Shown here piece after piece: positions 11,241 to 61,280 of a stretch of 64,000 bases of DNA. The notes below the pieces were generated by a model. It saw nothing but the letters and a program-made list of their open reading frames with translations. It searched no databases and was not told the origin of the DNA. The stretch is from Chalara sp. BL73. Lineage: Eukaryota; Ascomycota; Leotiomycetes; Helotiales. The stretch is from assembly GCA_918026815.1 (NCBI GenBank), contig CAKJVC010000057.1, positions 310,001 through 374,000 on the forward strand, read 5' to 3'. Position 1 is the first letter of the stretch; every line of letters starts with the position of its first letter. The position numbers and the translations under genes are program-made.

Positions 11241-11983
11241 CCAACCCACACATCTGGTTTCAGCATGCCGCCTTTCTCAAATACGACTGAATCGATCTTT
11301 ACCATTTAACGAATGAATCGCGGCTGCTTCTCTAACTGAAAAGTCGAGAAGCACTTCCTCTACATGAGGCGGGGTGCCCATTGACGTCTTTGGGCAGTCC
11401 GTTTTGGGCCTAGCTCGCTAAAATAGGGTTAGCAAGTCCGTTAATAGGCACGTTAATAAGCGGTGTAAAAACTTAATTTTATTTATTTTATATAATATGA
11501 AATATATTAAACTCTGCTATAATTAACTTCGATAAGCATTTATTGCGTGCCAAACTATTTTAATGCTTAAAAAAAAAGTAAAGTATAAAAGTATTTATCG
11601 AGTTTAAAATACAATTAAAGTTAAATCAGGCCGAAATTCAGGCAAAAACCAGAAATATAAACAATTTTAAGTATAATTCAGATTACAAAGTATTGTTTGG
11701 CAAAAAGCATTAAACAAGTATTAAAAAGTTTAAAAAACATTTAAAAAATGCTTATAAATCAAAATCAAAAAAAAAGCAACAGCCGATTTTAAACTAATAT
11801 TGTGAGCAGAATACAGTGGGTGCCTGAGGAAAACAATTTCCCGATTAGGAAGGACCATTTGTGAAAAGTGAATATATTTGCCAAAAAGAAAAGTGAATTG
11901 TTGTGTGTTGAATGCATAAAGCGTGGTAACGGAGCAAACTCCTGTTTTAATAACGTAAATGTATTGCAACTTTTTGAAAAGAA
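11241..11983. other. Transition into AT-rich block
   Basis: Base composition falls from normal to very AT-rich at about 11440. No gene is seen. A 111-codon ORF (11730-12065, minus) crosses into the LTR and looks like chance. The sequence from 11460 to 11980 resembles the mutated transposon DNA to the right and may be an unidentified remnant. Confidence 0.5.
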
Positions 11984-12187
11984 TGTCAGGCGCCAGGATG
12001 TCACGTGCTAAGGGGCACCGAGAGGGGGCTCGGTAAAGGTACTGAGGCTTGGCATGTATAGGCACGTAGGGAGTCGCCAGGGGTTCGGAGGGTATAAGTA
12101 AAGAACTCGGGACGCAGTAGAAAAAGAAAAAATTAGTTTTTGTATTAATTGCAGTTGATTTGTGCCACTTTACTTTAGCACTTTACA
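11984..12187 (+). repeat. 5' LTR of Gypsy X
   Basis: This 204-bp LTR starts TGTCAGGCGCC and ends CTTTACA. It aligns over its whole length, in inverted orientation, with the solo LTR at 20302-20504. A promoter-like GGGTATAAGTA lies near 12090. It has many more T/A substitutions in its 3' half than the solo copy. No 5-bp target duplication joins it to flanking DNA here, as expected if the other end of X is lost. Confidence 0.8.
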
Positions 12188-12257
12188 TTTTAATCTTTTT
12201 TTAACGAAATGTAGTTCGGCACGAGTTAAAAAAGCACTGTACTTTAAACGTTATAGT

Positions 12258-12545
12258 TGTAACAACTCAAGCCGAACAGGGATCTCGATTCGTAGATCTA
12301 GGTAGAAAGACTCAGAAGTGTGAACAACTATCAATTGTTATAACTAAAAAAACAAGCTACAAGCAGAAGAAAAAAAAAAGAGCAGTGTTTTATATACAGG
12401 AAACTAGCCAAAAGCCAGTGTAAGCGAGCTTTGTAGCGTCGGTTGCTAAGTTTTAGAGTGCCGAGCTTTGTAGTAACAAAAACTAAGCTTTACCGAGCTT
12501 TGCAGTATTTAACGCTAAGCTCGAAATAAAGCTAAAGTCGTAATA
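12258..12545 (-). repeat. 3' LTR of E1 (left end)
   Basis: 288 bp. The left end is only lightly mutated (CGATTCGTAGATCTAGG retained), while the inner half is strongly mutated. The inner terminus GTCGTAATA corresponds to GCCGTGACA in the other copy. Confidence 0.85.
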
Positions 12546-14226
12546 TTACTTTTTTTTTTAGTATAGCTTGTTTTTAAGCTACAGCGAATTAAAAATAAAA
12601 TATAAAAATCAAAAATTAAAAATCAAAAATTTACTTTTTCGGCTTTTGTAGTATACTTTACTTATTATTATTCAAGCAATCAGTTAGTTTTTTACTTTGC
12701 AAATAGCAATTAAGCTAATATTGTAAATTTGCCGGAAAACTTTTAGTTTTAAAGTATTTGTTATAAAAAGCTTTTAGTTTGTATAGCGCTTTTTTGAATT
12801 TTTCAGCATTATAAAATATACAGTCGTAATTTATGCTTATTTATTTAATTTAGTACTAAAGCTTTTAGCAGTATTTTCGGTTTTGCAAAACTTGTTTAAT
12901 TTTTTATTCCGGTTGTTAATTGTAAACTATAAATATTAAAAGCTTTTAATACTAGTTTAGTAGCAAATTATTAAAGTTTTTTTGCAAAAGTTCCGATATA
13001 AAAACATTATAAAACTAATTGTTTTTTAAAAGCTTTAAACAATACGAATAATTTATTTGTTTAGTAATTTTATATAAGTTTTTATTTTAATAACTTAGTT
13101 TTCGGTTTAACTGTTCGCTAGTTTAGTTTTTTGTCGAAATTTACATTTTGTTTTTAATTTTAAAGTCGATTAATTGTTAGTATTTGTTAATTTATATTGT
13201 TTGTTGCTTTTAAGTTTTAACTATTTTAGTTTTAGTTTATTTTTAAACTTCGTAAATTTTTTTAATATAAATTTAAACATTTTTCCGAGCTTTTTTAATA
13301 TATTGTAAAACTAAAACAAAGTTTTTAAAACGGATTTAATTTATATTTATTTAAAGCTAATAGCTTAACTCGATTATAAAAAAAAACAATTTTATAAAAT
13401 AATATAGCAAATTAGCTGTTGCGTAGTTTATTGTATAAATTAAAGTAAACTAGTTATTTTAAAAAATATTAGCAAAAAAACAAAAGTGTTAATCGATTTA
13501 TTAATTTGCGTTTTTAGTTTAACTGTTTATTTAAAAGTAATATATTGTCGAAAGTTTAAACTTTATACCTAAAAGCCGGTAAAACTTATTTCAAAACGCG
13601 AAAATAAACTAAAATTTTCAATTCGATATAATAGTTATAACAAAACTATAATACTTATAAATATGCACTAAATACAGTTAAACTATAATTTTAGCGTCGA
13701 CTGTTTTGTTGCAAAAAATCGAAATAAAACGTTTATCGAGTTTGTTTATAAATACATATATTATATTTATGCTTTTTTTGTCGAAAAGTATATTTTTAAA
13801 ATTAATTAATATATACTGCTAAAAACAGTTCGGTATTAGCAATAAATGCAACAGTTTTAAAGTTTTATTTTTAAAAACTTTAAATTTACAACAAACGTAA
13901 CAATTGTTTATAAAACGTTTAATATCGTTATTTATTTCGAATTAGTAATACTGTTTTTTAATTAGCTTTTTTGTTTTGTTTTAACTTAAATAAATTGTAG
14001 TTAAATTACAGTATAATACTGTAATTAAAACAGTTTGTATTAATTCGACTATTACAAGTCGGTTTTTTTTTTTTAGCAATTCGTTTTTTAAACTGTAGCT
14101 TTTTTTGCTTTTTTAATTTAGTTTTTTTACAAAATTTAAGTTTTAAACAGTTCGGTTAACTTGTAAAATTTCGTCGATTAAATCGAGCTGTTTTTTAATT
14201 AGCGACAACAACAAAATTATTCGGTT

Positions 14227-14340
14227 TATTTCGAGTTTTGTAATGTTTAACGTTAAACTTGTATCGAACTTTGTAGTACTTAACGCTAAATTCGTATCGA
14301 GTTTTACAGTGTTTAACGTTAAACTTATATCGAGCTTTTA
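14227..14340 (-). repeat. 33-bp coding tandem repeat in E1 pol, shared with its LTR
   Basis: About 3.4 units of 33 bp lie between the RNase H and integrase regions. On the minus strand each encodes an 11-residue unit of the type RYKFNVKHYKT / RYEFSVKYYKV. The same unit, less mutated, occurs in tandem in the E1 LTR at about 18720-18785, where one frame reads ELSAKHCRAR. Differences between the copies are essentially all C/T or G/A. Confidence 0.8.
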
Positions 14341-14539
14341 AAAAATCTAAAAATTAAACTGTGCTAAAAATAAAAAAGCTTAATTTCGATTTTTTCGCTT
14401 TGTTTAATTTAAGTTTTTTGTTTAGTTTTGTCGTGTTAACAAATCGGTTTTGTTATATTTGCCGAACTTGTAAAATATTTTGAAATAATACCGAAAAAAA
14501 ATTTTAACTTAATAAACTTGTTTAGTTAATAACAGTTTG

Positions 14540-14740
14540 CTCGATATAAAATATTTTAAAGTTTTATAGTTTATAATTACTTTAATGTAATTTTTAGTAT
14601 TTTTAAACTCGGCACGCTAATATTGCAACGTTTTAATAATAGCTAACATTTTTTTGTTGTAAATTAAATAATTAGTTTTTGCGAAAACTATAGTTTTAAA
14701 AAAATACTTTATAAAATGCTATTTACTGTCGAAGTTTTTT
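14540..14740 (-). pseudogene. RNase H region of E1 pol
   Basis: A minus-strand frame contains VFAKTNYLIYNKKMLAIIK followed by NYIKVIINYKTLKYF. This is the Gypsy RNase H signature region with acidic residues changed (TDHKTL-type motif now INYKTL). Stops occur on both sides. It sets the orientation of E1. Confidence 0.75.
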
Positions 14741-17700
14741 TAAAAAAAACATAGCTATTATTACAATGTTCAAAATATTCGTTTTTAGTATACACTAACT
14801 GTTTAAATTGTAATAAACTAGCAAAAAAGCGTTTATTAGTATAGTTTTAAACTTGTCGAATATTTAAATATATTTATTGTTAAAAACAAACTTATAATTA
14901 GCACAAATTAACTAAGTTAACAATATTGCAATTTAACTATAATTTCGAATAAACTTTTTGTAAAAATTGCAAAAACTTAAAAAAAATTAAATTTTTTTAA
15001 CTGTTTTCGAAAGTTTTTAATTTGCAATTATTTGTATTTTGTTTAAATTTATTTAAATATTATTAGTCGAAACAATAAATTTTAAATACTTTGTTTATTT
15101 TATACTAAATTTATATTTTTTAATATCGGTTTATAAATCGACAGTTTACAACTTGTTAATTATTTGCTTTATATGTATTTTGTGTTATAACTCGTTTTTA
15201 AAATAAATAAAAATATTATTAAAATATATTGTACAAATTACATTTAACAAATTTCGAAAAGTGTTATTAATATAATTTTAAAACGTTGCTAGTTTATTAG
15301 TAAAGCTAAAAAGTAAAACTTTGTATTAAAACAAGTTATAACAAGTACAAAATACTATAAATTTTTTAAATTTAAAAAAAATCCGGATTTAGTAAAAAGT
15401 TTGTCGAATATTTAGTTTTATAAAAATTTTAACTTTGTTTAGTTTAACTAGTGTTTCGTTAATTAATAACAAAAAATACCGGTTTTTTTTTATTAACGAA
15501 TTTAGTTTTCGATAATCGACACAAAAACGAAATAAACTGTTCGATTTTTGTATAAATAAAACAAATAATACAAAAAAAATTTTACTAGTAACAATAAATT
15601 TTTTTTTTAAATTAGCTGTTAAATAGTTTTGTATAGTTTTAAACTTTTCGATTAAATGCTTGTTTAAATAATAAAACTTTAAAATATTGTTTTTTATAAG
15701 TTCGATTTTATAATTAATACTTTAGTATAAAATTAAAATGTTTAATTTTTGCTTCGAACAAAAAACTAAACGACTATAATAAATATTCGGAATTTAGTTT
15801 TGCAAAAAAAAATTTAGTTTAATAAACTATTGTTTTTGTTTTTGATTTTTAATTATTCGGTTTAAACTGTTTAACGTAATTAAAAATAGCTCGATTTTTT
15901 ATTGTTAAACGTTTAGTATAAATTCGTTACTAAAAATTATTTTAATATTTAAATATGCACGTTAGTTAAACCGACTATTAAACCGATTTTTTTTTTTTGT
16001 TTTAACGAATTTTTTTAGTTGAAATTTCGGTTTAACTTTTAACTTGTAATTGTAAAAACAAAAAAGTTTACTAATTATAACTTTTAAGCTTTTGCTAGTT
16101 TTTCGAGTTTAAATTAGTTTATAAACGTTAGCTTAAATAAGTTTTTAGCTAACTATAACAAAACTCGATTTTTTGAATATAAGTTTTTAGCTAACTGTAG
16201 TTTTTCGAATAGTATAAACTGTTTAAACAGTTTAAACAGTTAATTATATAACTTAAACAATTAACTGTTAAACAGTTTATACAATTTAAATATACAAACA
16301 ATTTTTCGCTAACAAAGTTTAAATTAAATTTATTGTTAAAACTTTAATTTAAATACTGTTTAAACGTTTTTTGTTGTTTTTAACAATTGTTTTGTTTTAG
16401 CGTAATATATTTTATTAGTATTATATTTAAATTTGCTAAAATCGAATATTGTTTTTTGAGTAAATAGTTATAGTTTTAAAATAAATGTATATTAGTAAAA
16501 ACTTTAAAAACTACTGTAATTATTAATAATAAATATTAATTAAAATCCGAAAATAATTAAAAAAATTGCATTCGAAAATTATATTATAAAAGCTTAGTTT
16601 TAAAATAAATAAAAAAAAGTTGTAAATTCGGCAGCTATTAATTTTAATATTAAATAAAAAGTATTAAAAAATAAAAAATCTTTTTTTACTATTGTATTTT
16701 TTTGAATAAATAAAATAAAAAAACCGTTTAAGTTTTAATTCGAAAATATAGTAAAAGTTTAATACAAAACAAATATTAATAAAAATATAACTATTAGTTC
16801 CGATATTACTTAAAGCTTTAGTTTATATTACAATTTTGTTTTTGTAAAAAGTATATATTACAATAAAAAAATTGCCGGTTATTAGTAAACTTAAATCGAT
16901 TTGTTAAAAATCGAACACGTAAATTTTAAAAAAAAAAATTTAGTTTAAAACTGTTCGTTTTTCGATTTGTTTGCGTTAAACTTATTTTGTGTTTTATTAC
17001 TTAAAACTTTTTTTTGTTTAATTTCCTGAATTTTAAATATTGCTCGAAAATTTAAGCAAAAACTTGCAAAATGCTTTTTTTTACTATATTTAAAACAAGT
17101 CTTTTAAAACAAATCCGAAACTAAACTACAAATTAAGCTAAAAATGTTATTACAGCTTGTAGCTAAGCCCAAAATAACACGCTGAAATACTAACGAAAAA
17201 GCTTAGTAAATTTTCGAAACCAAAAATTTTTTTTAACGTTTAAAAACTAAAACAGTATTTAGCTTAGTTTAACAAACTAGTATAAAAAAAAATTGTTAAT
17301 AAAATTTTTGCAAGTTAATATTTAGTCGTTAATATTCGTATACTAGTTTTTAGTATATAAAATACTAATAGTATATAACTAAAAGTCGGTTTTAAAATTT
17401 TTTATTTAGCTTTTTTTACAAATAACTTTTTTAAGTCGAAAAAAATACTTGCTTTATAACAGTTAAACAAATAAACTCGGTATAAAAATTATTAAAGTTT
17501 TATACAATTTATTGTTTTAAAACGTAAAACTAGTTTTCGGCTTTTTCGGCTTTAAAATAGTTCCAAAAAATTGTGTTTAAATAAACTAGTATTTTGTTAA
17601 CAAAAAACTAAAGTTTTAAGCTATTTTTGTTATACTAAAACGAAAAATAACTTTATGTTTTATTTATAGTACAACTAAACACATAATCGATTCGTTTTTG

Positions 17701-18810: not shown

Positions 18811-18815
18811 ATAGT

Positions 18816-20296: not shown

Positions 20297-20301
20297 TATT
20301 T

Positions 20302-20820: not shown

Positions 20821-21750
20821 TACGCCGATATATTTAATAACGTTTTCGCAAACATTTTATTTAAGTATTATTTAATAAAGCACCGAATTAACTTTGAACC
20901 GAATACGATATTTTTATAAAAACTTGTTTATTTGTTTTTTTAAAAAAAATTAACAGTATTAAAAAAATACTTTAAATTTTATTTAAACAAAAAATAAATT
21001 CGTAAGTTTACTAGTTTTACAAAAACGCCGATTTTATTTGCACTTAAAAAAAAACGGTTTTTTTAAGCTATATATAAACTACAAAAATTAAACAAAATTA
21101 CAATTAAAAATAAAACGCTATTATTTTTAATTAGTAAAACGCTAAATAAACTTTGTTAAACAAAACGATTTACAAAACTAAACTTTACTAACGTTTATTG
21201 CAAAATACGTATTAAAAAAAAGCAATAAATAAAAAACGATGTTTTGTATTTAATACAGCTATTTCGAATATTTAGTTTTTTTTTTAAGTTAACAAACGCT
21301 TTAACTACGTTTTAAGTTTATATTAACTAAATAGTAGTAAATTTTGTAAATATAATTTATATAGTTTATTTAAATAATATACTTATTTTTTCGAAAAAAA
21401 TCGAAAACTACACAAAAACAGTTTATAAAGTTTTTAAAAAGCTATAAAAATACAAATTGTATACAAACTTTTTTAAATACTGTTAAGTTTTTAAGTTTTA
21501 TTTTAAACTTTAAAAATATAAAAATAAATCTTTTTTGCGTAGCAACTGTAAAAAAATAGCCGATGTTTAATTGTTATAAAAATATTTAAGTGTTTTTAAA
21601 GTTTACTAACTTTTATAAAAAGTTTATTAAAAAATACGTTCGAACTTGCGTACTGCTAACAAACTTTTTTAAAAAAAATAAAAATAAAAACAAACAGTTT
21701 TAAATAAGCTATAACTAAAAAATTTTTACAGTTGTTCGAAAAAAAAAAAT
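20821..21750 (+). pseudogene. Reverse transcriptase remnant of Gypsy X
   Basis: One plus frame reads through stops as a recognisable Gypsy RT: YADIFNNVFANIL, KHRINFEP, APILF-like TPILFALKKK, NKITIKN, RFTKLNFTNVYCKIRIKK, then TNFYKKFIKKY. Catalytic acidic residues are changed or preceded by stops. The frame ends where G3 is inserted. About 60-70 codons expected before the RNase H core are missing at the junction. Confidence 0.8.
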
Positions 21751-22010
21751 TGTAACAATCGGTATGCCCAGGGCACAACACGAAAGTCATGATACAAAAG
21801 CAAAAAGTGATGATTAGGGTATGAAAAGTTTTAAACTTAATACAAAGAAAACTCGGAGTTGCTTATATAAAAGCTTGTTTTTATTTTTTACAGTTGCTTT
21901 TTATGTTTTTGTATTTTTAGTATTTTAAACTTATAAAGCAATCACGATTAGTTTATTATACGCACTTTTATATGTTTTTATTTTAGCTCGTGATTTTTTG
22001 CGTTGTTACA
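21751..22010 (+). repeat. 5' LTR of G3
   Basis: 260 bp. The start, TGTAACAATCGGTATGCCCA, is nearly intact. Mutation becomes heavy after about 21840. Confidence 0.85.
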
Positions 22011-24779
22011 TTATACAAAAACGTCAAGTTAGCCGAAAACGGCTTTTTTTATAATATTTTTTTATCGAGTTTATTTTGTTATACCGAACTTAATTCGGTG
22101 CAAGTTTTATTTAAATTTAAATATTTTTAAATAACCGAGATTTTTTAAATTTTTCGGACAGCTAATAAACTTAAGTTTAGTTTAGCGCGTGCAGCTAATA
22201 AAAATCGTTGTAAAAATGTAAAAAAAAATATTAAAATTTTTTTAAAAACTTTTTTCCCCGCAAAAAAAATTGCGAACAAAAAACAAATAGTTATAAGCTA
22301 ACCGGAACTTTGTTTTTTTATATATTTTATACTTTTTACCGAAATTTCACCGATACAAAATATTATATTAACATAACAACTATAAAACTTCGTTTTAAAC
22401 AACAAAACGTAAAACAATTAAACTTTTGTAAAACAGTTTTTTATTTAAAAGCTTTTTTCGTTTAAACTTCGTAATACTTAACGTGCAAAAAATTTTTGCA
22501 ACTATAAAAATTTTAATAAAATATACAGCATTGTTTATTTATTAAAAACAAAAGCAAATAAAACCGAAAAAACACAGCAAAAAAATCGCGCGAAATTTTA
22601 AGTTTTATAAAATTTAATTACAAAACTAATTTAGTTAGTTCGAAATTAAAACTAACGTCGACTCGCTGTAAATTTTGTGCGTAATTTTAATAAAACACTA
22701 AATTCGGTTAAAAACTTAAATTTATAACGACATTTATTAAAAAATAGTTTTTCGCTAAAAATTAGTTATACAATAAACAATCGTTAAATAAAATTATTTA
22801 AAACTTTCGATTTTAATACTAATTAAACTTCGTACACTTTTTTTTGCTTTAAAAAAACGAAACTAATAAAAAAAAAACTTTTACTTTTTATTAATAAAAA
22901 GCTTTTGTTATAAATCGCTTAAAAGTTAATTTTAACTACTATTTAACTAAACGTTTAAAAAAAGCATTAGTATAAAAAACAACTAAAACTTAAACTAAAA
23001 AATACTTAAAAAACATATACTTGTTTTTAAATAGTTTTAAAACTGCGAAAAAAATATTAAAGCTTTTAATTACGTATTACTTTACCGGCAATAAAACAAA
23101 AAAAACACGAAACGCGTTTTACAATATAAAAATAAAAAGCGCTAGTTATACAAAAAAAACGTTTTTTCAATTTAAAGTTAAATTTTTTAGTTAAATTATT
23201 AAAAAAAAAAAAAAAAACAAAGTAGTTTTTTTTATATAAACTAAAATATTAAATACTTTTCGACTTGTTTCTGTAAGTTTTAAATACTAGTAAAAAAAAG
23301 ATTTTTCAGAAATAATTAGTACGTTAACGGCAATCGATATAAAAACGCGTAAAATTATTTATTTAAACGTATTATACACTAAAAAAGTTTTTAAAACAAA
23401 AAAAAATACTGTAAAAAAGTTTTTAACAAATTTTAAAATGTCGATTACAATTGTTTTAAATATACGAAATTTCGATTCGAGTATTTATTTTTTTCGATAT
23501 AGATTTTTTACTTTTGCTAAAAAAAAAATTTTTAACTTAGTTCGAACAACTTGTTTAAAACAATAAAAAAAGCTTGTTTTAAATACAAAAAATTTAAATA
23601 TTTTGCAAATAACTGTTTACAAGTTTTTACAGTTAAAAAAATAGTCGAAAACAATACGAAGTTTAAACAAAAAAAACTAATAAAAAATAAAAAGCATAAA
23701 AACCAAAAAAAAAACAACGAAGTTTAAACAAAATTTTGTTTTTAAATTTACGCAAATATAATTTGTTAAAGCTAAATTTAACAAAGTTAATAAATAGTAA
23801 ACAGTTTTTAGTTTTTTGTTAATTTAATATAAATAAAACCGGAATTTCGTTATATTTATTAGTAAATATAAAAGTAAGCAGTTATTTTTTTATTAACTGT
23901 TTTTTTGCTATTCGTTTTTTATATATTTTTAATATTTTTATTCGACAACTTTTTTATTTTGTATTAATTAAAAAATTAAAAAAAAATATATTTAGTTGTA
24001 TGTTTTAATACATTCGTTTATACTTAACTTTTAATAATCGGCAAATATACAATTGTTTTTTTATAATTTTAAACTTAAAAAATCAAAACGCTATTATCAG
24101 TAATAAATAGTTAAATTATTTTAAAATTAAATTAAACTTAGCAAAAAATTAGTTTATATAGTTTTTTTAAATACTTTTCGATTTTAATATAGTTTAAAAG
24201 ACTAATAATTTTTTATAAATTCAAAAAACTAGTTAATATTTATAGCAACTACTAAATAAATACAAACTAAAAAAATTAAGCAATAAAAATAAATTAAATG
24301 CAAAAAACGCGAAAATTGCGAAATTTTATACTTATAGCTTTTATTCGAAGTGTTAAATTTTGAATTTTTTTTGCATTTTACACAAATATTTTTTAATTTT
24401 AAAAAAAAGCTAAATTACAAATTTTTAAGTTTTTTAAAATAGTCGATATTTGTTAAATTAACGCTAACGCGCTATATTTTAATATAAAATCGAATAATAC
24501 TAAGTTTTTTTAAACTAGCTTATATAAAATAAACCGGATTATTAAAAAATTAAAAACTGCTAAAAATATAAAAACTAAACAGTTAATTCGTTTTAAATTA
24601 TTTAAATTATATAATTTGTTTTAAAACGTATTTTTTAAAATAGTTTTAAATACGCTATTTTTTTATTGTTTATACAACTACAAAATTCAGTTAAAAAATT
24701 TTTGGTTTAACTACTTTTTTTTTTATACCGACAATTTGCTAAAAAACTAAAAACAGTAAAAAAGTATTTATTAAAACAT

Positions 24780-30368: not shown

Positions 30369-30373
30369 TAAAC

Positions 30374-34338: not shown

Positions 34339-34343
34339 TATAT

Positions 34344-34693: not shown

Positions 34694-34722
34694 CTATTTT
34701 TTTTCTAAACTAGCGTGTTTAT

Positions 34723-35330: not shown

Positions 35331-35399
35331 TTTTTTTTTTTAAAAGCGTTTTTTAAACATTTTATTTAAAACTTTTAAATATTAACAGTAAAACTTTTT

Positions 35400-35660: not shown

Positions 35661-35665
35661 TATAT

Positions 35666-36088: not shown

Positions 36089-38408
36089 TTTTAAGCACTT
36101 TGTTTTGAAGTATCTGTATTATATATACTATGTTAACAACTAGTTTAATTTCACGTACTTTTAAAAGCTTAGCGCTGTTTGAAGCACTACTAATTCTACA
36201 GTTTATTTATATACTACAATAAGTCAAACTACTTAAAGTTTAGAAACTTAAAACTTTCGATAGCAATCGACAGTACTTTTGCTTATATGTTTCACAATAC
36301 GAAATTTACATTCGCATAAACCCGCTATTTTTCGAAAGCTAAAAACAGATAGTTTTGTAAACAGTATTTTTTTTAACAAAAACCGTTTACAACTAGATTT
36401 TTACTTATTTAAAAAACTATTTCGCTTATTTACATAACAAAAAAAAAGTTAAAACTAACTTCATTTTTGACAGCTATAAAAAATATATTAGTTAACTTAC
36501 TCGTATGTTTAAAAACACGAATAAAGAAATAAAAACCGAACGAAACATTTAAGTATACAAACAATTTATTAGTATAACGAAGTACACGAAACAGTTCGAG
36601 CTGCTAGCAAAAAAAATAAACTAGAACAACAAAACTTTTACTGCGCTTTACTACAAAAGTCTTAAAAAGAATGTCAAAAATAATATTGTTCGAAAAAGAC
36701 AGCTAATTAACTTTACTGCTATAAAAAACAAAGCAATCGAAATTAACACTAAACTGTATAAAAAACGCATAAAAAAAAAAAACAGTATTTTTTAAAGTTC
36801 AGCAAAAAGCAACACTTTCAGAAACTTCGCTATTATTCGCTTATAAAACTGAACGTATTTTAAAAAAAGCTTAAACAAAAAAACAGTTTATTTAAAAAAA
36901 AAATACAGAAACGACGCGACAAAAAACTATGTTTTAAATATAGCTTTTCGAGCCACATAACTAGCTTGCATCGACAAAAACGACAATTATAAAAAAAAAA
37001 AAAGCAGCTAAATATTACAAGCAAAAAAAAATACAACAAAACACTTAGCAAAGTTTTAGTTGTGCTTAAAGTCAAAAAACTAAAAACACTAAAAAAAGAA
37101 CTAAAACAACAACAAATTTATATTTAATATAACGCTACGTGCGTTAAGTACAGAATAAAATACAGTACAACTTAAAAAAACAAATATTTCAACTGTTATT
37201 TCGACGAAAATAACGAATAAAAAAAAACAAACAAAACTATAAAAAAATTTTTATTCTAAATAAATAAAGCAGCTATCGAATCAGAATTCAATAAAAATTG
37301 AAATGTAAGCTTAAAACTAAACCGGTTTTTAAGAATTTTCGAATTAGAAAAACGGATTTTGCATAAGTTATTATTAAAAATTAATTAAAATAACTTTAAA
37401 ACACTTTTCAGAAAATATGTAGTTAACAACACTTTAACAAAAAAAATCACTTTTTAGCAGCGACTAAAAATTATTAATAATAAAATCTTTAAAAAAAAAA
37501 CTAAACTAAAAAAAATAAAAACAAAACGAAAAACTAAAAATCGCAGTAAGTAAAAAGCAATATTTGTATTAAGTTTTGTCGACAAGTCGAAAAAAAACAA
37601 TATAGTACACTATTGCTACTTTTAACATAATACACTTTATTAAACTACATGTTATACGAACTACTGTATATATTATTATAACGCTAAGCAAATAAAATAG
37701 TACTTTAAACGAAAACGAATAATATATTTCGAAAATAACGAAAAAAAAAAACTTAAAAAAGAACTTTGCGTTTTCGGAAAAAAAAAACAATTATTTGTTA
37801 AAGTTAAGTTAAAAACGTATAATATAACAGCTATAATAAACTTTAAAACTACTAAAAACTTCGTATTACTAAATATAATAAAATATCTCGGAATATTTAT
37901 ACAAGTTAAAACTAACTTATATATTCTTACAATAACTAACAGCACGAATACATCGTACTAAAATAAACTTGTAAATATCGAAATATTAAAACTTAAAATA
38001 AACACAAATAACTACATAAAGTAGTTATAACTAAATGTTACTCGAATAAAACAGTATAAAATTATTTTAAAAATGCTATAAATTATAAAGCACAACTTAA
38101 CGATTAATTAACAAACAAAACAGCTCGTTTTTAACAAATGCTAATACGCAGTTAAGCTTAAACTATTAACTATTAAACTAACAAAAAGCAAAAACAAAAA
38201 AGTACAATTAAAAAAACTCGATTAAAGCTTACGAAAAGTTTGCGCTACTTTTAAAAAAGAGCTAAATTACTTAAACGAAAAATTATATATTAAAAAAGTG
38301 CTTAAAAAGTATAAAAAGTTCGAAAAGCTGTTTTCGGAAAAACAAAAACCCGCAGCTTTACCGGAACACAAATTATAAAATTATAAAATACTATTAATTA
38401 AAAAAACA
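36089..38408 (+). pseudogene. Gag and protease region of inner G4
   Basis: The sequence lies between the 5' LTR and the RT. The frames are broken, with short coding-like stretches. ORFs on the minus strand (36860-37075, 37569-37945) are antisense shadows. I cannot confirm a zinc knuckle or protease motif. Confidence 0.45.
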
Positions 38409-38900
38409 ATGCTTTTTAAAAAACCAATTTACTTATTATCTGTAAATAACTTAAAAACGTTCAGAAAATTTATCGATTTAAGCTTAAAAAAAAAAATTAT
38501 TAAAAAGTTAATATTACTAGCAAAAAGCTCGGTGTTGTTTATATTTAAGCAAAACAGTATTAAACAATTGTACGTTAACTATCGAAAGTTAAACAATATA
38601 ACAATTAAAAACTGCTATGTATTACTAAAAACAAACGAAATAAAAAATCGCTTGCAAAAAGCTAAAATATTTATACAGCTAAATTTACGAAATACGTATT
38701 ATAGTATACGAATTAAAAAAAGTAAAAAATAAAAAACAGTTTTCGAAACTTAGTACGAATATTACGAGTTTACAGCTATACTAATAAAACTTACGAATGT
38801 TTTAACTATTTTTTAAAAACTAATTAATAATATTTTTATGCTATTTTTAAACGTTACTTGTATATACTATTTAAATAACATTTTGATTTATTCTAGTCGA
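38409..38900 (+). pseudogene. Reverse transcriptase remnant of inner G4
   Basis: A 107-codon stop-free stretch contains IKQLYVNYRKLNNITIKN and KAKIFIQLNLRNTYYSIRIK, a standard Gypsy RT segment. Downstream, the catalytic YLDD box is YLNN (38866-38877): both aspartates have become asparagine through G-to-A change. The outer copy has the parallel segment at 44451-44636, minus. Confidence 0.85.
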
Positions 38901-39279
38901 AAAAAAAATCATTAAAACGATATTAAAGTAGTATTATGCGCGTTGTATAATGCTAATATAAAACTTAAACTATCGAAATGTCGATTTAAAGTTAAAAAAG
39001 TTATATTTTTAAAATATGTAATTTTTATAAAAAAAATCAAAATAAATTTAGCAAAAATTAAACTTATTTTAAAATAAAATACTTTAACATACGTTAAAAA
39101 CGTACAATTATTTGTAAAATTCGCAAATTTTTATCGAAAATTTATTAAGAAATACTCGGAACTAGCTATTTTATTAACTCGACTTATTCGGAAAAACATA
39201 GTTTTTAAATAAACAACAAAAATACAAAAAGCGTTCGACAAGTTAAAACAAATTTTTACTACTATTTTAATACTTTTCG

Positions 39280-40620
39280 TTTTCGATACAAAAAAAAAAA
39301 TCAAAATAAAAACAAATACATTAAATTACGCTTTAAAAACTATATTTAGCTAACTTAACGCAAAAAAGAAATAGCAACTAACAGTTTATTATTTACGGAA
39401 ATTTACAGTAGTAAAGCTTAACTACAAAATATACGACAAAAAGCTGCTTGCTATTGTTAATGCATTTCGCGAATAAAAAAAGTATTTAAAAAAATTCAAA
39501 TACTAAATACAAGTACTAATAAACTATAAAAACTTTATTGTTTTTACTATTACAAAAAAGTTAAACCGACGCTAAATCAAATAAGCAGAAAAACTCGCTT
39601 TATACAATTTTAGAATTTTATATATTAAAAAAACAAAAAACGCTAAAGCAAACGCGTTTAACAAAAAACCGAAATACTTTTTTAATAAAACGTATATTTT
39701 GTACACAGTGCTACAACAAAAAAAAGACTTATTAGTATTTAACAAAAAAAAACTTTTTATAGCTACGAAAATAAAACATCGAATAAAAAACTTAAAGTTT
39801 ATTTAAGTATATAAAAAGAATTTTATAGCTACAAAAGCTTTTAACAAACAAAAGCAAAAATTTACTAAAAATAGCTTAAAAATTTTTCGTTATTACAGTA
39901 AAATTTATGTTTTATTTACGTTAAAAACAACTTTTGTAATAAAACAACACGGATTACTAGCTTATAAACATTAGAAAATCGCTAAAACAATAAACAAAAT
40001 TTTTAAAATATATTACTTTTTAAAAATAAAAAAACTAGTTATTAAAATAGTTACCGAATACAATACGTATATTCGAAACAAAGTTTTACGCTATACTTTT
40101 TATAAATTAATGCAATCGCCGACTACTTTAAACAAACTATAGAAATTTATTATATAAAATTTCGTAATAAAACTACTATTTTTTAAACAACCGGTTTCAA
40201 AAAAATAGTACAATTTAATATTTGTTATTATAAAACGAATTACTAAATACTACTACTTAAAACTATATTTAAAAAACAGTACAGCAAAAAATTTAGTTTA
40301 TATATTTTTTAAAGTTGTAGTTGCGAACTATAAAACTTTTACAAAAATTATATTAAACAAAAACAAACTTTTTACATTTAAGTTTTAAACAATACTTATT
40401 GCGCTTATAAAAGTTAAAAAAAAACTATTAACGAACTTTTATTTACAAACTAATAAACAAATAAAAAAACTTAATTAAACAATAAAAACTTATTTTAAAT
40501 ACTATATAAACTATAAGCAAAACAATTAAGTCGAGTTTTTACTACTCGTACAGTTCGTATACAACAGCGCAATTAATAAAACAACAAAAGTATTACTATT
40601 TTATGCTAACTATAGTTACG
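39280..40620 (+). pseudogene. RNase H and integrase remnant of inner G4
   Basis: A plus frame shows an RNase H core (VKLNYKIYDKKLLAIVNAFRE-like region at about 39410-39470) and the integrase zinc region: KQHGLLAYKH, IAKTINKIFKIYYF, EYNTYIRNK. This is followed by MQSPTTLNKL at about 40110. The order and spacing match a Gypsy integrase. Several stops are present. Confidence 0.7.
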
Positions 40621-41039
40621 AGCTAAAAGTATACTATAAACCGAGCAAAAATAAAGCGCAGTTATAGCTTGCAATAATTAAAGTCGAACAATTACAAGTA
40701 TTATACTTGTAACTAACCGAAAATATAAGTTTTTTTAACTAAAGATTTGCGAAGTATTACAACTGTAAGTATAGTAAAATATTACACTTTAAAAAAAGAA
40801 ATAAAATTTATTTTGTTAAAAAAAACATTAAAACCAAAAAACTAAGCAACAAACTGAATTACAAAAAATTAAAACTATTTAAAATTAAACAAGTTGCAAA
40901 ACTAAATATATTCGAACTTTACTTTTTTAAAACTATAAACATATATTTAGTATTTTTTGCTTTACTTTTTAAACCGACATTAAAAAAAGCACTGCTAGTT
41001 TTACACACGGAAATTGAACTAATTAACTTAAAAACTAAA

Positions 41040-41170
41040 TACGAAGTCGAAAAAATTTTAAACTGCAAGTATATTAAAAAAAAACTAAAGTATTTAATTA
41101 AATAAATCAATTACTTAAATTCGAAAAACACATAAAAACCGAAAAAACACTTTAATTGCTTTAAAATACT
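41040..41170 (+). pseudogene. Chromodomain of inner G4 Pol
   Basis: The frame reads YEVEKILNCKYIKKKLKYLIK, then a stop where W is expected, then INYLNSKNT and PKKHFNC. This is a clear chromodomain pattern (YEVEKIL...KYLIKW...Y...NTWEP). Chromodomains of this class direct integration to particular chromatin. Confidence 0.8.
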
Positions 41171-41249
41171 TAAAAAGTTTTACTGTTAATATTTAAAAGT
41201 TTTAAATAAAAAACTTAAAAAACGTTTTTAAAAAAAAAAAAATCGTACT

Positions 41250-41849
41250 TTAAAAACAGCACGCTTTTAAAAAAAACTTCGGTAAAGTCGTTTTTTTGAC
41301 TATTTCGGCCGACTTTTTTCGCTAATTTTTTTTTTTTTTCTAAAGTATCGAACTTATTTAAAAACGCGAAACCGCGTCGCAATATTTTTTTTTTACGAGC
41401 ACGAAAAAACTTTTTTTGCGTACGAATTTGTTTAATTCGTGCAGAAATCTTTACAGCAGTTTCGGCGAGTATTTCGACTTTTTTTTCGGCTTTAGCTTCG
41501 TTTTTTTTTAACTTTTTTTTTGCTTTGTTTAAAAACTTTCAGTTTTAAAAGCAGAATTACTAGTATTACAACTCGAAAAACTACAACGCATATATTTAGC
41601 ACAACGAGTTAACTTTTTTGTTTTTATGCATTTTATAAAATGTCGATTTTGGGCATGTTTTTTTTTACAAGCAATACACGAAATTATTTTTTCGCTAGTT
41701 AAAATTATTCGTTTTTTTAGATTTTTTTTTTCAATGTTTTTTTGTAACGTTTTAAACTTAAAACAATCGGCTGTACATTTAGTTGTTATAATAAAAAAAA
41801 AAAGCGGCTATACAGCTTTCTACGATATTTCTTTAGTATACTTAAACAT
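41250..41849 (-). pseudogene. Antisense cysteine-rich ORF in inner G4
   Basis: Starting at 41849 on the minus strand, it reads MFKYTKEIS, later IISCIACKKKHAQNRHFIKC and LTRCAKYMRCSFSSCN, then an acidic/basic tail (ARIKRIRTQKKFFRARKKK, RGFAFLNKFDTLEKKKK). The cysteine spacing is C-x2-C, C, C, C, C over about 40 residues, with histidines. It occupies the gap between chromodomain and 3' LTR and reads opposite to Pol. It shows a weak resemblance to fungal cysteine-rich domains of the DUF3716 type, not proven. The plus-strand ORF at 41626-41853 is its shadow. Confidence 0.55.
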
Positions 41850-41878
41850 GTAGACACGCTAGTTTAAAAAAGAGATAG

Positions 41879-42266
41879 TGTTACGCGCATCGCTAACAAG
41901 CTTATGCTTTAAAGGCCTGAAGCTCGGTAAGCTTAGCTTACACAAAGAACCTTTGGAATGAGAATCACGTGATGGATCATGGATCATGCTGTGATTTATA
42001 AGCCAGCTGAATTATAGATCATGCTGTGATCTATAAGCCAACTGGATCACGCTTTATGCAATAATTCAACCCACGAAAGAATTTATATAAGTAAATAGTT
42101 TTTCTTTAAATAGAAGCTTCGTGCTCAACTCAATATAATATCTTGACACCATACTGTTATCGGGATCTTACTTCTTATATGTAATATACCTACTTCTCCC
42201 CAGACCAACAACCCTCGGACCAAGATCTTCTATTTATATCAGTTGTAGGCTAATAGGACCGTAACA
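41879..42266 (+). repeat. 3' LTR of inner G4 with two 35-bp units
   Basis: 388 bp. The first about 190 bp is moderately mutated, and the last about 160 bp is nearly intact (ends AATAGGACCGTAACA). Confidence 0.88.
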
Positions 42267-42271
42267 TATAT

Positions 42272-45200
42272 TTAGTTTTGCAATTCGTTTAATTTTAAAT
42301 AGTTTTAACTTTTTGTAATTTAGTTTGTTGTTTGGTTTTTAGTTTTAATGTTTTTTTTAACAAAATAAACTTTATTTCTTTTTTTAAAATGTAGTATTTT
42401 ACTATATTTACGGTTATAGTATTTCGTAGATTTTTAGTTAAGAAATTTTATGTTTTCGGCTAATTGCGTATACAGTACTTGTAATTGTTCGACTTTAATT
42501 ATTGCAAATTATAAATACGTTTTATTTTTGCTTAGTTTATAATATGTTTTTAACTCGTAACTATAATTAGTATAAAACGGCGATATTTTTGTTGTTTCGT
42601 TAATTGTACTGTTGTATACAAACTGTATAAGTAGTAAAAGCTCGACTTAATTGTTTTATTTGTAGTTTATATAATATTTAAAATATACTTTTATTGTTTA
42701 GTTAAGTTTTTTTGTTTGTTTATTAATTTATAAATAAAAGTTCGTTAACAGCTTTTTTTTAACTTTTATAAATGCAATAAACGTTGTTTAAAACTTAAAT
42801 ATAAAAAGCTTGTTTTTATTTAAAATGATTTTTGTTAAAGTTTCGTAATTTGTAATTACGACTTTAAAAAATGTATAAGCTAAGTTTTTTGTTGTGTTGC
42901 TTTTTAAATATAGTTTTAAATAGTAGTATTTAGTAGTTTTTTTTACAATAACAAATATTAAATTATACTATTTTTTCGAAACCGGCTGTTTAAAAAGTAG
43001 TAATTTTACTACAAAGTTTTATACAATAAATTTTTATAGTTTGTTTAAAGTAGTCGGCAATTGCATTAATTTATAAAAAGCATAACGTAAAACTTTGTTT
43101 CGAATATACGTATCGCATTTAATAATTATTTTAGTAACTAGTTTTTTTATTTTTAAAAAATAGTATTTTTTAAAAATTTTATTTATTGTTTTTGCGATTT
43201 TTTAATATTTATAAGCTAGTAGTTTATGTTGTTTTATTACAAAAGTCGTTTTTAATATAAATAAAATATAAATTTTTTTGTAATAGCAAAAAATTTTTAA
43301 GTTGTTTTTAGTAAATTTTTGTTTTTATTTGTTAAAAATTTTAATAATTAAATTTTTTTTTTTATAAATTTAAATAAACTTAAAATTTTTTACTTAGTAT
43401 TTTATTTTTGTTGCTATAAAAAGTTTTTTTCTGTTAAATACTAATAAGTTTTTTTTTTGTTGTAGTACTATATACAAAATATATGTTTTGTTAAAAAAGT
43501 ATTTTAGTTTTTTGTTAAACGCGTTTGTTTTAGTATTTTTTGTTTTTTTAACATATAAAATTTTAAAATTGTATAAAACGAGTTTTTTCGTTTATTTAAC
43601 TTAGCGTCGGTTTAATTTTTTTGTAATAGTAAAAATAATAAGATTTTTATAGTTTGTTAATATTTGTATTTAGTATTTAAATTTTTTTAAATACTTTTTT
43701 TATTTGCGAAATGTATTTACAATTGCAAGTAATTTTTTGTTGTATATTTCATAGTTAAGTTTTGCTAATATAAACTTTCGTAAATAATAAACTGTTAATT
43801 GCTATTTTTTTTTTTGCGTTAAATTAACTAAATATAGTTTTTAAAGCGTAATTCGATATATTTGTTTTTACTTTAATTTTTTTTTTTGTATCGAAAACGA
43901 AAAGTATAAAAACAGTAGTAAAAGCTCGTTTTAGTTTGTCGAACGCTTTTTGTGTTTTTGCTGTTTACTTAAAAACTACGTTTTTCCGAATAAGTCGAGT
44001 TAATAAAATAGTTAATTCCGAATATTTTTTAATAAATTTTCGATAAAAATTAGTGAATTTTACAAATAATTGTACGTTTTTAATGTATGTTAAAGCACTT
44101 TATTTTAAAATAAGTTTAATTTTTGCTAAATTTATTTTAATTTTTTTTGTAGAAATTATATATTTTAAAAACGTAACTTTTTAAACTTTAAATTTACATT
44201 TTAATAGTTTAAGTTTTATGTTAATATTATATAATGCATACAATACTGTTTTAATATTATTTTCGTAATTTTTTTTTTTGTAAAAATAAATCAAAATATT
44301 ATTTAAATAACATATATATATAACATTTAAAAATAGTATAAAAATATTGTTAATTAGTTTTTAAAAAGTAGTTAAAATATTCGTAAGTTTTATAAGTATA
44401 GCTGTAAACTTATAATATTTGTACCGAGTTTCGAAAATTGTTTTTTATTTTTATTTTTTTTTAATTCGTATACTATAATACGCGTTTCGTAAATTTAGCT
44501 GTGTAAATATTTTAGCTTTTTGCAAACAATTTTTTATTTTATTTGTTCGTAGCAATGTATATTTGTTTTTAATTGTTATATCGTTTAATTTTCGATAGTT
44601 AACGTACAATTTTTTTGTGCTATTTAGTTTAAACACAAACAGTACCGAGCTTTTTGCTAGTAATATTAACTTTTTAATAATTTTTTTTTAAACTTAAATT
44701 AATAAACTTTTTAAACGTTTTTAAGTTATTTTCGAATAATAAATAAATTAGTTTTTTAAAAAGCACTGCTTTTTCGACTAAAAGTATTTTATAATTTTAA
44801 AGTTAGTGTTTCGGCAAAACTGTAGTTTTTTGTTTTTTCGAAAACAAGTTTTCGAACTTTTTATACTTTTTAAACACTTTTTTAGTATATAATTTTTTAT
44901 TTAAGTAATTTAGCTTTTTTTTAAAAGTAGCGCAAACTTTTTTTAAGTTTTAGTCGAGTTTTTTTAATTGTGCTTTTTTGTTTTTGTTTTTTGTTAGCTT
45001 AATTGTTAATAATTTAAATTTAACCGTATATTAACATCGGTTAAAAACAAACTGTTTTGTTTGCTAATTAATCGTTAAGTTATGTTTTGTGATTTATAGC
45101 ATTTTTAAAATGATTTTATATCGTTTTATTCGAGTAACATTTAATTGTAACTATTTTATATAGTTATTTGTGTTTATTCGAAGTTTAGTCGTTTTAATAT

Positions 45201-47093
45201 TTACAAATTTATTTTAGTAAAAAGCGTTTATGCTGTTAGTTACTGTAAAAGTGTACAAGTTAATTTTAATTTGCGTAAATATGCCGAAGTATTTTATTAC
45301 ATTTAGTAATACAAAATTTTTTGTGGTTTTAAAGTTTATTATAACTATTAAGTTGTACGTTTTTAGCTTAACTTTAACGAATAACTGTTTTTCGTTTTTA
45401 AAAGTGTATAGTTTTTGTTTTGCTTTATTTTTTTTGTCGTTTTCGAAGTAAATAAGCTTTTTTTTTTAAAAATACTATTCTGCTTGCTTAGTATTGTAAT
45501 AGTATATACAGTAGTTTGTATAATATACAGTCTAATAAAAAATACTGTACTGTAAGTATTTATAGTGTGCTGTATTGTTTTTTTTTAATTCGTCGACAAA
45601 ACTTAATACGAGTATTGCTTTTTACTTAGTGCGTTTTTTGGCTTTTTTTGCTATTTTTGCTTTTTTTAGCTTCGTTTTTTTTTTAAGGATTTCGTTGTTA
45701 ATAATTTTTAATTGTTGTTAAAGTGTAATTTCTTTTGCTAAAGTATTATTAACTTTATAGTTTTTGAAAAATGCTTTAAAGTTATTTTAATTTATTTTAA
45801 ACAAAAACTTTTGTAAAAAAAAAAATTTTAATTTAAAAATTTTAAAAAGTGCGTTTAGCTTTTTGCTTATGTTTTAATTTTTATCGGATTTTAATTCGAT
45901 AGCTGCTTTATTTATTTAAAATAAAAATTCTTTTATAGTTTTGCTAGTTTTTTTTTATTCGTTATTTTCGTCGAAATAACAATTTAAGCACTTATTTTTT
46001 TAAGCTGTACTGTATTTTATTTTATACTTAATGCACGTAGTATTATACTGTATATAAATTTGTTGTCGCTTTAGTTTTTTTTTTAGTATTTTTAGCTTTT
46101 TGGCTTTTAGTACTGCTAAAACTTTGCTAAGTGTTTTGTTGTATTTTTTTTTGTTTGTGTTGTTAAGTTGCTTTTTGTGTTGTTAAGTTGCTTTTTGTTT
46201 TTTTAAAGTTGCTTTTAGCAGTAAAAGCTAGTTATGTAGCCCGGAAAACTACACTCGAAACATAGCTTTTTGTTACGTTGTTGCATTTTTTTTTTTGGAT
46301 AAACCGTTACTTTTTAGCTTTTTTTAAAACGCGTCTAGTTTTATAAATAAATAATATTAGATTTTTTTAAATTAAGCTTTTTTATTGTACTAGCTTATAA
46401 AGTACTGACTTTTTTTTTTTAAACGTTTTTTATACAAGCGAGTATTAATTTCAATTGTTTTGTTTTTTATAACAAAAAAAGTTGAAAGTTTTTTTTTTTT
46501 AACAATATTATTTTTGACTTTATTTTTAAGTTTTTTGTAATATAACGCTAAAAGTACTTTGTTATTTCAATTTACTCGTTTTACTAATACTTTAAACTTT
46601 TTAGTATACTTCGAAACACTAGTAAACTGTCGGCATAATTAAATATTTTTTTTTGCACGTAGTTTTTTATTTAAGTTAACGAACATGCGTGTAAATTGTC
46701 GAACATACTTATTATAATCGTCGAAAATAGCGTTAGTTTTATTTATTTTTTTGTTATGTTTATATACGAAATAATTTTTTAAATAAATAAAAATTTAGTT
46801 ATAAACAGTTTTTGTAAAGTATAACACTGTTTAAAAAACGATTTATTTTTAACTTTCGAAAAACAATAAATTTATACAAATGTAAATTTTGTATTACAAA
46901 ACATATTGCTTAAAGTATAATTTGTTGCTGTTAAAAAGTTTAAGTTTTTAAACTTTAAACAGTTTGATTTGTTGCGGAATAATTTCAGATTGCTTTTTTT
47001 TGTTATCAGTAGATTTTTTGAAAATACGCGAAGTTGAACTAGTTGTCGACATAATATACGTAATACAAGTACTTCAAAACTAAATGTTTAAAA
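42272..47093 (-). pseudogene. Pol and Gag region of outer G4
   Basis: The minus-strand RT segment at 44451-44636 reads TKKLYVNYRKLNDITIKNKY and KAKIFTQLNLRNAYYSIRIK. It is nearly the same protein as the inner RT but with an independent set of changes (for instance Asp versus Asn in LND/LNN). Integrase and RNase H lie at 42272-44200 and gag at about 44900-47000. The plus ORF at 45230-45451 is antisense. Confidence 0.75.
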
Positions 47094-47443
47094 TGTTACG
47101 GTTTTATTAGTTTACAACTAATATAAATAAAAAATTTTAATCCGAAAAGTGTTAGTTTGAGAAAAAGTAGGTATATTATATATAAAAAGTAAATTCCAAT
47201 AACAAATATATTATAAAAAATACTATTTAAGTTAAGCACGAAGCTTCTATTTAAAGGAAAGCTATTTACTTATATAGATTCTTCGTAAGTGGATTATTGC
47301 TTTTGGCATGATTCATGGATCGTGAATCACAGCATGATCCATGATCCATCACGTGATCCTTTACTTCAGGGGTTCTCTGTGTAAGCCAAGCTTACCGAGC
47401 CTCAGGCCCCTAAGGCATAAGCCTGTTAGCGATGCGCGTAACA
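47094..47443 (-). repeat. 5' LTR of outer G4
   Basis: 350 bp. The right (outer) about 150 bp is intact and GC-normal, with ATGATCCATGATCCATCACG and CCTGTTAGCGATGCGCG. The inner part is mutated. Confidence 0.88.
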
Positions 47444-47448
47444 TATAT

Positions 47449-47900
47449 ATTTCGAAAAAAAAATTAATAAATTAAATAAATTAAATTGCTATTTTCAAGA
47501 AAAAAAAGCTAATCGACAAATAAATTATTATTTGCTAAAGTTTATTATTAATTACTAATATATTGTTAAACAAAACTTTTAGCATTTTAGTTAAATAATA
47601 AAAATAAATACTTCGTATTATTTATATTAGCAAAGATTTATTTACAAATTCCAACTACTTCAGCGTTTTTTGAAAGATTTTTTAGCTAAAAAGCTAGAAT
47701 TATTAATAAAGATCGAAATAAGCTTAATAAAAATACTTTTAAGTATATTATTAGTTTAAAAAGCTAAAGTTTATTTAAAGAAAATAGCTTAAAGAATACG
47801 GAAAAAAGTTCAAAAGAAAATAATTTTGAAATTAATTAATTAAATCAGCTAATTAAATTGGCTATTACTATTCTTTTACGCAAAGAAAACAACTTTTAAA
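47449..47900 (+). pseudogene. hAT transposase C-terminal dimerisation region
   Basis: The plus frame reads YLQIPTTSAFFERFFS, a stop, then KARIINKDRNKLNKNTFKYI. This is the conserved hATC dimerisation signature (P-x-T-S-A...ER-F-S...I...R-x-x-L). It completes the gene interrupted at 34338 by G4, and it proves the element is a hAT and its coding strand is plus. Confidence 0.85.
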
Positions 47901-48084
47901 TATTATATTAATAATTTTGCATTTTATTTAATAATTTAAATGTCACGTGCTAAATCATGATTAATCATGATTCATTAATCAAATCAAATCATAATTAAAG
48001 TAAAAATCATTAATCAAATCAAATCAAATTAAATCATTATTAATTAGATTATAATCGATTAATATGATTTTTTTGGTTACGCTG

Positions 48085-61277: not shown

Positions 61278-61280
61278 GAT

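Follow-up and report, generated by a model that had tools for sequence, protein, structure and literature searches.

Repeats in the genome of the helotialean fungus Chalara sp. BL73 carry the marks of a C-to-T hypermutation whose main target is a cytosine preceded by a pyrimidine and not followed by G (YCH; Y, pyrimidine; R, purine; H, any base but G; N, any base). The pattern was first seen in a window of 64,000 bp (contig CAKJVC010000057.1, positions 310,001 to 374,000; G000:C51:310001-374000 in the numbering used here), which belongs to an assembly of 58.66 Mb in 199 contigs and contains an AT-rich block of nested repeats. Comparison of repeat copies across the genome confirms that YCH-targeted hypermutation of repeats is real and far beyond chance. 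The kind of mutation, its presence on both strands and its location agree with repeat-induced point mutation (RIP), but the lack of a CpA preference does not, and we therefore do not class it as RIP of the Neurospora type. We consider it probable that a RIP-type process is involved in which the target context has moved from the 3' to the 5' neighbour of the cytosine, with the RID-type methyltransferase gene L003 as the likeliest executor. The main features of the window are the following:

11440..48084, no strand: AT-rich, hypermutated repeat block of about 36 kb, delimited by C/(C+T) at YNH positions
1..11400, no strand: left flank, control, not depleted (YCH/RCH 1.04)
48500..64000, no strand: right flank, control, not depleted (YCH/RCH 1.03)
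35662..42270, plus strand: Ty3/gypsy long terminal repeat (LTR) element, copy A, from self-alignment, with LTRs at about 35662-36089 and about 41875-42267
42266..47456, minus strand: 5' part of inverted gypsy copy B, split by copy A (35830-40911 against 47348-42266 inverted, 82%)
34335..35666, minus strand: 3' part of inverted gypsy copy B, on the far side of copy A (against 42274-40905 inverted, 81%)
12251..14250, plus strand: second repeat family with many genomic copies (at least 51 genome matches), polarised against two unmutated copies

Composition of the repeat block

The flanks have a GC content of about 0.39-0.54 per kb, and every kb between 13 and 48 kb has 0.14-0.27. C/(C+T) at YNH is 0.33-0.54 before the left edge of the block and 0.10 at 11501-11750, stands at 0.21-0.32 in a less mutated stretch at 11751-12500 and then drops to 0-0.04 beyond 12.5 kb; at the right edge it recovers to 0.36-0.40 from 48.0 kb. 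Correspondingly, YCH/RCH in 2-kb bins is 0.03-0.38 within the block and 0.83-1.24 outside it. Observed/expected ratios of NCN trinucleotides, taken on both strands over 12501-47900, are low for TCA (0.20), TCT (0.18), CCA (0.28), CCT (0.23) and TCC (0.35), and ACA (1.09), GCA (1.69), TCG (3.02) and CCG (3.20) are kept or high, with CCC (0.75) and ACC (0.55) as exceptions to this rule; in the flanks all 16 ratios lie within 0.69-1.23. An initial annotation of the window, made from the sequence alone, had derived the rule in part from a hand count of 39961-40080, which proved exact: the 21 G:C pairs comprise 12 RCH, 3 RCG, 5 YCG and a single YCH. Both standard RIP indices (TpA/ApT 1.40; (CpA+TpG)/(ApC+GpT) 0.57) cross their published thresholds (>1.15 and <=0.75, respectively; PMC7882544, cited, like all papers here, from excerpts), and the block would therefore pass as ordinary RIP.

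Mutation context in the gypsy family

The region 34335-47456 is a nested insertion in which copy A, on the plus strand, lies inside copy B of the same family on the minus strand, with breakpoints overlapping by about 5 bp, as expected of a target-site duplication. A genome search with the copy A stretch 35830-40911 gave 31 matches, corresponding to 30 copies (the window's included, several partial; a lower bound) and one 40-base fragment; gag, RVT_1, an H2C2 integrase zinc domain and a chromodomain were found in pieces of copies L032 and L025. Two pairs of copies stand head to tail with their matched parts less than 100 bp apart, L011/L029 (G000:C14:6050-15438) and L023/L034 (G000:C3:888589-896603).

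The copies were oriented by their A-rich strand and then aligned, and each C of one copy was counted by whether the other copy has T, gap columns being dropped. Ten of the 435 pairs among the 30 copies differ by 440-583 transitions over about 5.07 kb and by no transversion, so that the changes are almost exclusively C:G to T:A, and three more pairs have one transversion. These 13 young pairs make up the main table, the other 422 being left out; they share copies and are thus not independent. Cytosines are mutated at 0.50 in YCH (4344/8693), 0.07 in RCH (1561/22077), 0.09 in YCG (442/5042) and 0.005 in RCG (24/4374), which bears out the 5'-pyrimidine, anti-CpG rule of the initial annotation. 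Within YCH, all contexts are affected (TCA 1015/2107, TCT 1763/3281 or 0.537, TCC 539/1475; CCA 488/975, CCT 370/555, CCC 169/300). After a purine the counts are far lower (ACA 398/5072, GCA 279/3637, ACT 447/6534, GCT 385/5383, ACC 33/792, GCC 19/659), and so they are before G (TCG 287/3646, CCG 155/1396, ACG 12/2477, GCG 12/1897). Sorted by 3' base only, CpA (2180/11791, 0.185) is not above CpT (2965/15753, 0.188), CpC stands at 0.236 and CpG is lowest of the four at 0.049 (466/9416). The lack of a CpA preference noted in the initial annotation is therefore confirmed, and the alternative that CpA is the main mutated dinucleotide fails; neither a Neurospora-type CpA preference, nor a Microbotryum-type TpCpG preference, nor the CpG excess of 5-methylcytosine decay is present.

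Some of the initial wording was too absolute. TpCpG is not exactly spared, because TCG is mutated at 7.9% in the young pairs, about six times less than TCA. CpG sites in general are strongly protected, but YCG reaches about 9% in these pairs and about a third in a heavily mutated copy of the second family. ACA and GCA do stay far below YCH, yet R-C-A and R-C-T are mutated at 7-8%. The comparison of the LTR starts at 35666 and 41879, on the other hand, was reproduced exactly, with 14 transitions in 130 bp, 13 of them at YpC, one at ACC and none at CpG.

The 13 pairs have at most 4 gap columns, and restriction to unchanged neighbours leaves the context matrix alike. Three separate groups of copies give the same picture (YCH 0.514/0.492/0.488, RCH 0.082/0.056/0.093, YCG 0.108/0.066/0.102, RCG 0.009/0.002/0.006), so that the rule extends past the window, and the other 29 copies show it against one fixed comparator, older copies having a higher background. 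Among ten young copies with unanimous neighbours, 89 of the 91 columns with one C among nine T are YTH, and the mutated fractions by column are 0.59 for TCA, 0.67 for TCT, 0.59 for CCA and 0.77 for CCT, against 0.13 for ACA and 0.15 for ACT.

Methylated cytosines that decay slowly in silenced DNA would also produce C-to-T changes in repeats, and the genome has a DNMT5 gene (see below). This explanation is contradicted by CpG being the least mutated context and is ruled out because hundreds of transitions come with zero transversions; we reject it and give it hardly any credence.

One copy, L027 (G000:C172:41013-46047), has a GC content of 13.4% and retains C at only 0.3-0.5% of YYH positions. 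Against the fixed comparator it is mutated at 0.93 in YCH and 0.48-0.62 elsewhere, about half of its RCH and CpG sites being gone, a loss that repeated rounds or a second, slower process may explain.

Polarised comparison in the second family

Seven places in the genome match window positions 12251-14250 at 72%, with bit scores within 8 of each other. Two of them, L043 (G000:C168:534236-536250) and L044 (G000:C76:8548-10562), are identical over 2015 bases and served as the reference; their GC content is 0.48, as opposed to 0.23 in the window copy. From the reference to the window copy, 1993 aligned bases show 269 C-to-T and 258 G-to-A changes, 15 reverse transitions and 11 transversions, that is, 527 of 553 changes are C-to-T or G-to-A. 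YCH is close to saturation (315/346, 0.91), followed by RCH (165/443, 0.37), YCG (38/112, 0.34) and RCG (9/66, 0.14), and CpA is not favoured: TCA 57/65, TCC 43/51, TCT 43/48; CCA 59/63, CCC 45/47, CCT 68/72; ACA 22/64, ACC 24/54, ACT 24/60; GCA 23/76, GCC 27/79, GCT 45/110; TCG 18/62, CCG 20/50, ACG 4/33, GCG 5/33. Tabulation of the NCN contexts, as the initial annotation had called for, shows YCH enriched and CpG low in the gypsy family as a whole and in this polarised comparison.

These data also bear on the explanation that the pattern is an artefact, produced by the alignment or by the base composition of the ancestral sequence. In its favour, an AT-rich block skews its k-mers whatever the cause. 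It is contradicted by the near-gapless young pairs, ten of them without a transversion, and by the polarised comparison with copies of GC 0.48, all of which show the same matrix; we reject it, and its probability is practically nil.

Strand balance and wider context

A logistic model fitted on the ten zero-transversion gypsy pairs gave odds of 13.1 for a 5' pyrimidine and 0.054 for a 3' G, with an interaction of 1.75; 3' A and T are equivalent and 3' C is somewhat lower. Pyrimidines at -4, -3 and +2 have a small effect (odds 1.49, 1.75 and 1.73), and a longer target motif was rejected since these flanking effects are only 1.5-1.75-fold. With context allowed for, the minus strand has an odds ratio of 0.88 at YCH sites, and the polarised second family is about equally changed on its two strands, so that both strands are affected.

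This balance bears on the second mechanism offered in the initial annotation, a deaminase-like activity that prefers TC/CC, taken here as a cytidine deaminase that behaves like an APOBEC and edits repeats or the DNA of retroelements. APOBEC enzymes prefer YC (TC/CC), which resembles the context described here, some gypsy pairs show a raw excess of G-to-A (see below), and two genes match the Pfam family Inv-AAD. However, APOBEC3-type editing is one-sided, and if minus-strand cDNA were edited, a one-sided pattern of G-to-A changes would be expected, which neither the odds ratio nor the polarised counts show. A test for processivity or strand clustering by runs in 20 directed copy comparisons gave z from -2.83 to +2.04, with 16 of 20 below 0, a weak signal with target positions uncontrolled.

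The gene content argues the same way. Eight loci match the PF00383 profile, and most of them appear to encode housekeeping enzymes: L035 and L037 resemble dCMP deaminase and cytidine deaminase, L036 and L042 look to us like subunits of the tRNA deaminase, and L040 and L041 have no assignment beyond PF00383. The remaining two, L038 and L039, are the Inv-AAD matches (210 and 179 bits). They were considered as an APOBEC lead on account of the AID/APOBEC-like label of Inv-AAD and rejected, because they match the Rib2 deaminase structures 7drz/7dry (1e-42 and 8e-33; PMC8256712 for 7drz) and the label misleads. The presence of two Rib2-like deaminase genes in one genome is a separate observation. 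An APOBEC_N (PF08210) search of the genome gave no match at E<=1, the control genomes being prokaryotes and no positive control being included, and no gene of the AID/APOBEC type was found among the candidates. Of the two mechanisms originally proposed, the RIP-like one fits and the deaminase-like one is without positive support; we reject it as improbable.

Restriction to repeated DNA

The start-side flanks of the 29 other gypsy loci, some of which contain element sequence where the copy is partial, comprise 7 normal and 22 depleted ones, and in all 22 depleted flanks Y is below R. Detailed edge profiles were made for seven copies chosen for a flank GC of at least 0.43, and copy number was checked for three of the 29 element flanks. 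Two of these, the flanks of L016 (1-1129) and L012 (1-1005), match only themselves and are not depleted, whereas the flank of L010, of normal GC yet depleted, is repeated elsewhere at about 80-84%. On these three flanks the depletion is thus confined to duplicated DNA, in agreement with the initial proposal that the process acts on repeats: the block and the copies are depleted and the single-copy flanks are normal. At L012:1006-1250, a dip beside the element (0.25 against 0.43) falls on a dispersed repeat that is at most 245 bp long. Next to the L016 element, at 1130-1250, lies a dispersed repeat about 110 bp in length; it has dozens of copies, many of which are 80-94% alike and partly match on both strands.

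Shorter and older repeats occur within the window as well:

12260..12548, no strand: repeat piece with a copy at 18524-18813 (55 transitions, 1 transversion); 170 bp of it also at 1722-1891, in the normal-GC flank
21740..22013, no strand: other repeat with a copy at 28959-29231 (39 transitions, 4 transversions)
14338..15648, no strand: old repeat (the E1 area of the initial annotation) with an inverted copy at 24742-26048, 65% identity

Over the 170 bp shared by the three places, YCH/RCH is 1.12 at 1722, 0.64 at 12260 and 0.36 at 18524. RIP is expected to leave repeats shorter than about 400 bp alone. The piece at 1722-1891 is unmutated and the short dispersed repeat next to L012 (245 bp or less) is YCH-depleted, so there is no clean length threshold.

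Candidate methyltransferases

A PF00145 profile search of the genome gave four matches in three genes, L001, L002 and L003. L003 is of the RID type; its reading frame is uninterrupted through three exons, which were joined by eye at splice signals, and it carries the PPCQ motif. It falls within a RID-type group of 24 rows (support 87/91) whose named members are all leotiomycetes; three of its 25 matches have an organism name (Sclerotinia, Chlorociboria and Coleophoma). At eight sites of the catalytic region where 22-25 of the 25 relatives agree, L003 departs from them (E587D, F614A, F621K, Y624F, L628V, A642K and two further sites; open reading frame numbering of this analysis). Immediately before position 614 lies the EQT motif, whose counterpart in the alignment with a solved methyltransferase is ENV. 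In a tree without P0030, the L003 branch measures 0.47; among the five nearest relatives, four have branches of 0.07-0.14.

L001 (G000:C79:16667-20605) is another RID-like gene; it is highly divergent and has CPCQ instead of PPCQ. L002, assigned to DNMT5, matches chain 7r76 at 2e-35; 7r76 is deposited as Rad8, and we take it to be Cryptococcus DNMT5. No DIM-2-like match was seen in the PF00145 search, which is not proof of absence. The search for such genes that had been suggested thus yielded the RID-type gene but neither a DIM-2-like nor an APOBEC-like match.

Weighing the RIP-type explanation

If the process is of the RIP type, duplicated DNA in the nest of repeats would be recognised and C then changed to T on both strands of the duplicated stretch. 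The process would read the 5' neighbour, with odds about 13-fold higher after a pyrimidine and about 19-fold lower before a G, L003 would be the likeliest executor, and lineage-specific changes in its catalytic region would have shifted the target preference. The data themselves show the type, direction and context of the mutations, their occurrence on both strands, their confinement to repeats relative to the single-copy flanks that were checked, and a RID-type gene with an unbroken frame. We infer the recognition of homology before meiosis, the role of RID and that of its altered residues in setting the context; the process itself need not be active now.

Several observations weigh against this explanation. 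The CpA preference usual for RIP is missing. The two reference copies of the second family are unmutated recent duplications that escaped, and the scores of five more places against the window copy differ from theirs by no more than 8 bits. Recent unmutated copies thus coexist with saturated older repeats in the same genome. RIP needs a sexual cycle, and a mostly clonal lineage would therefore account for the unmutated duplicates. Active RIP should hit long duplicates once such a cycle has taken place, and the identical copies would fit it only if none came after they had spread. In the ten young gypsy copies, YCH is not in excess in the mirror count, that of columns with a single T and nine C (YCH 9/27, RCH 128/371), as few YCH columns still hold nine C and these are survivors, and TCC is low by column (0.174, 19 columns). 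Raw strand counts are uneven in some gypsy pairs, as in L015 versus L032 with 147 C-to-T and 336 G-to-A, and in the pool of 29 gypsy copies the minus strand is higher in most contexts (e.g., CCA 0.58 versus 0.75), a skew not seen in the polarised second family. For other repeats, 10 of 41 pairs were dropped as shorter than 150 aligned bases and 31, some of them overlapping, were kept; the 14 with few transversions show a weaker contrast between YCH (239/636) and RCH (227/1439), with the same lean in YCG (56/344) and RCG (15/300), and over all 31 the contrast is weaker still (e.g., TCA 0.38, ACA 0.23).

Further points concern L003 itself. The P0003 branch is equally long (0.49), the fork joining L003 has a support of 81/71, and D587, F624 and K642 are not unique to it, since one or two of the 25 relatives have them as well. 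Any link between the L003 changes and the mutation context would be a correlation within one genome. L001, which aligns through the catalytic blocks despite its CPCQ, could be the executor instead, and both L001 and the DNMT5 gene L002 are present, so a RIP-type process might be run by either of them rather than by L003. Only six relatives of L001 were found, including proteins from Cytospora, Venturia and Trichoderma, and we know of no RIP role for any of them. DNMT5 has been described as a CpG maintenance enzyme (PMC13297926), yet CpG is the least mutated context here. We regard this variant as unlikely and retain L003 as the preferred candidate.

Comparison with known systems

With RIP of Neurospora crassa the process shares C:G-to-T:A change on both strands of duplicated DNA and the presence of a RID-type gene. 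The RID-dependent Neurospora process, however, is ordered by the 3' base (CpA>CpT>CpG>CpC, as cited in PMC5496416), whereas in Chalara the 5' base is decisive and CpA has no advantage. The context of ascomycete RIP is stated as a 3' dinucleotide in the literature covered (including PMC4133081, PMC10234303, PMC4858203 and PMC5445492), with CpA in Phialocephala (PMC5148876, which also gives three Dnmt1-family genes for Oidiodendron), CpA and CpG in Trichoderma (PMC5496416), CpT also high in Neurospora Tad1 by RIPCAL (PMC2621366), CpA or CpT depending on the family in Colletotrichum (PMC6180176) and CpT dominant in alignments (PMC7882544). Also close are the RIP-like CpA+CpT signatures of Botrytis, Sclerotinia and Magnaporthe (Amselem et al. 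2015, PMC4352252), two of which are leotiomycetes: 3' A and T are both used and a RID/Masc1-type gene is present. YCH is not shown in the excerpts of that study, where contexts are tabulated by dinucleotide and a 5' rule could be missed.

Outside classical RIP, hypermutation in Microbotryum also has a trinucleotide target with a 5' pyrimidine, TpCpG (PMC5381629), but this basidiomycete system requires the 3' G that protects here. In Zymoseptoria, CpG is likewise little mutated although repeats are targeted, but the mutator is CpA-specific and linked to DIM-2 (PMC8016269), of which no match was seen in our search. The initial annotation had stated that no described fungal process has the YCH context; in the open literature on RIP context and on this fungal group we found no such rule, older context studies being outside that coverage, and beyond this scope the statement is too strong.

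Neighbouring genes

For the protein encoded at 5681-7366, in the left flank, the best match with an organism name comes from Oidiodendron maius (73%). Three neighbouring open reading frames at 8588-10895, adjoining the block, would by our reading belong to an NB-ARC/TPR-like protein, and 57400-57945 may encode a secreted protein that contains a tract of KKDEP-type repeats. Viral contigs were scanned with one reverse-transcriptase piece, and no relatives of it turned up.

Implications

A survey of 2025 describes RIP-like defences as sharing a CpA preference (PMC12543289). At trinucleotide resolution the Chalara genome is an exception, and the target rule of a repeat-mutating genome defence can apparently change between lineages. 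Standard indices have a blind spot here in that they score a YCH block as ordinary RIP, and relatives may share the rule because YCH looks like CpA+CpT at dinucleotide resolution. We tentatively suggest, as a possibility short of an even chance, that the RIP machinery of this lineage switched from 3' to 5' reading because residues in RID's catalytic region were substituted, and that many leotiomycetes may share this switch, hidden by dinucleotide scoring. According to one review, purified RID has no detectable methyltransferase activity (PMC13297926); a naturally altered context, together with a RID protein altered at near-invariant catalytic positions, makes the route by which RIP turns C into T testable by a swap.

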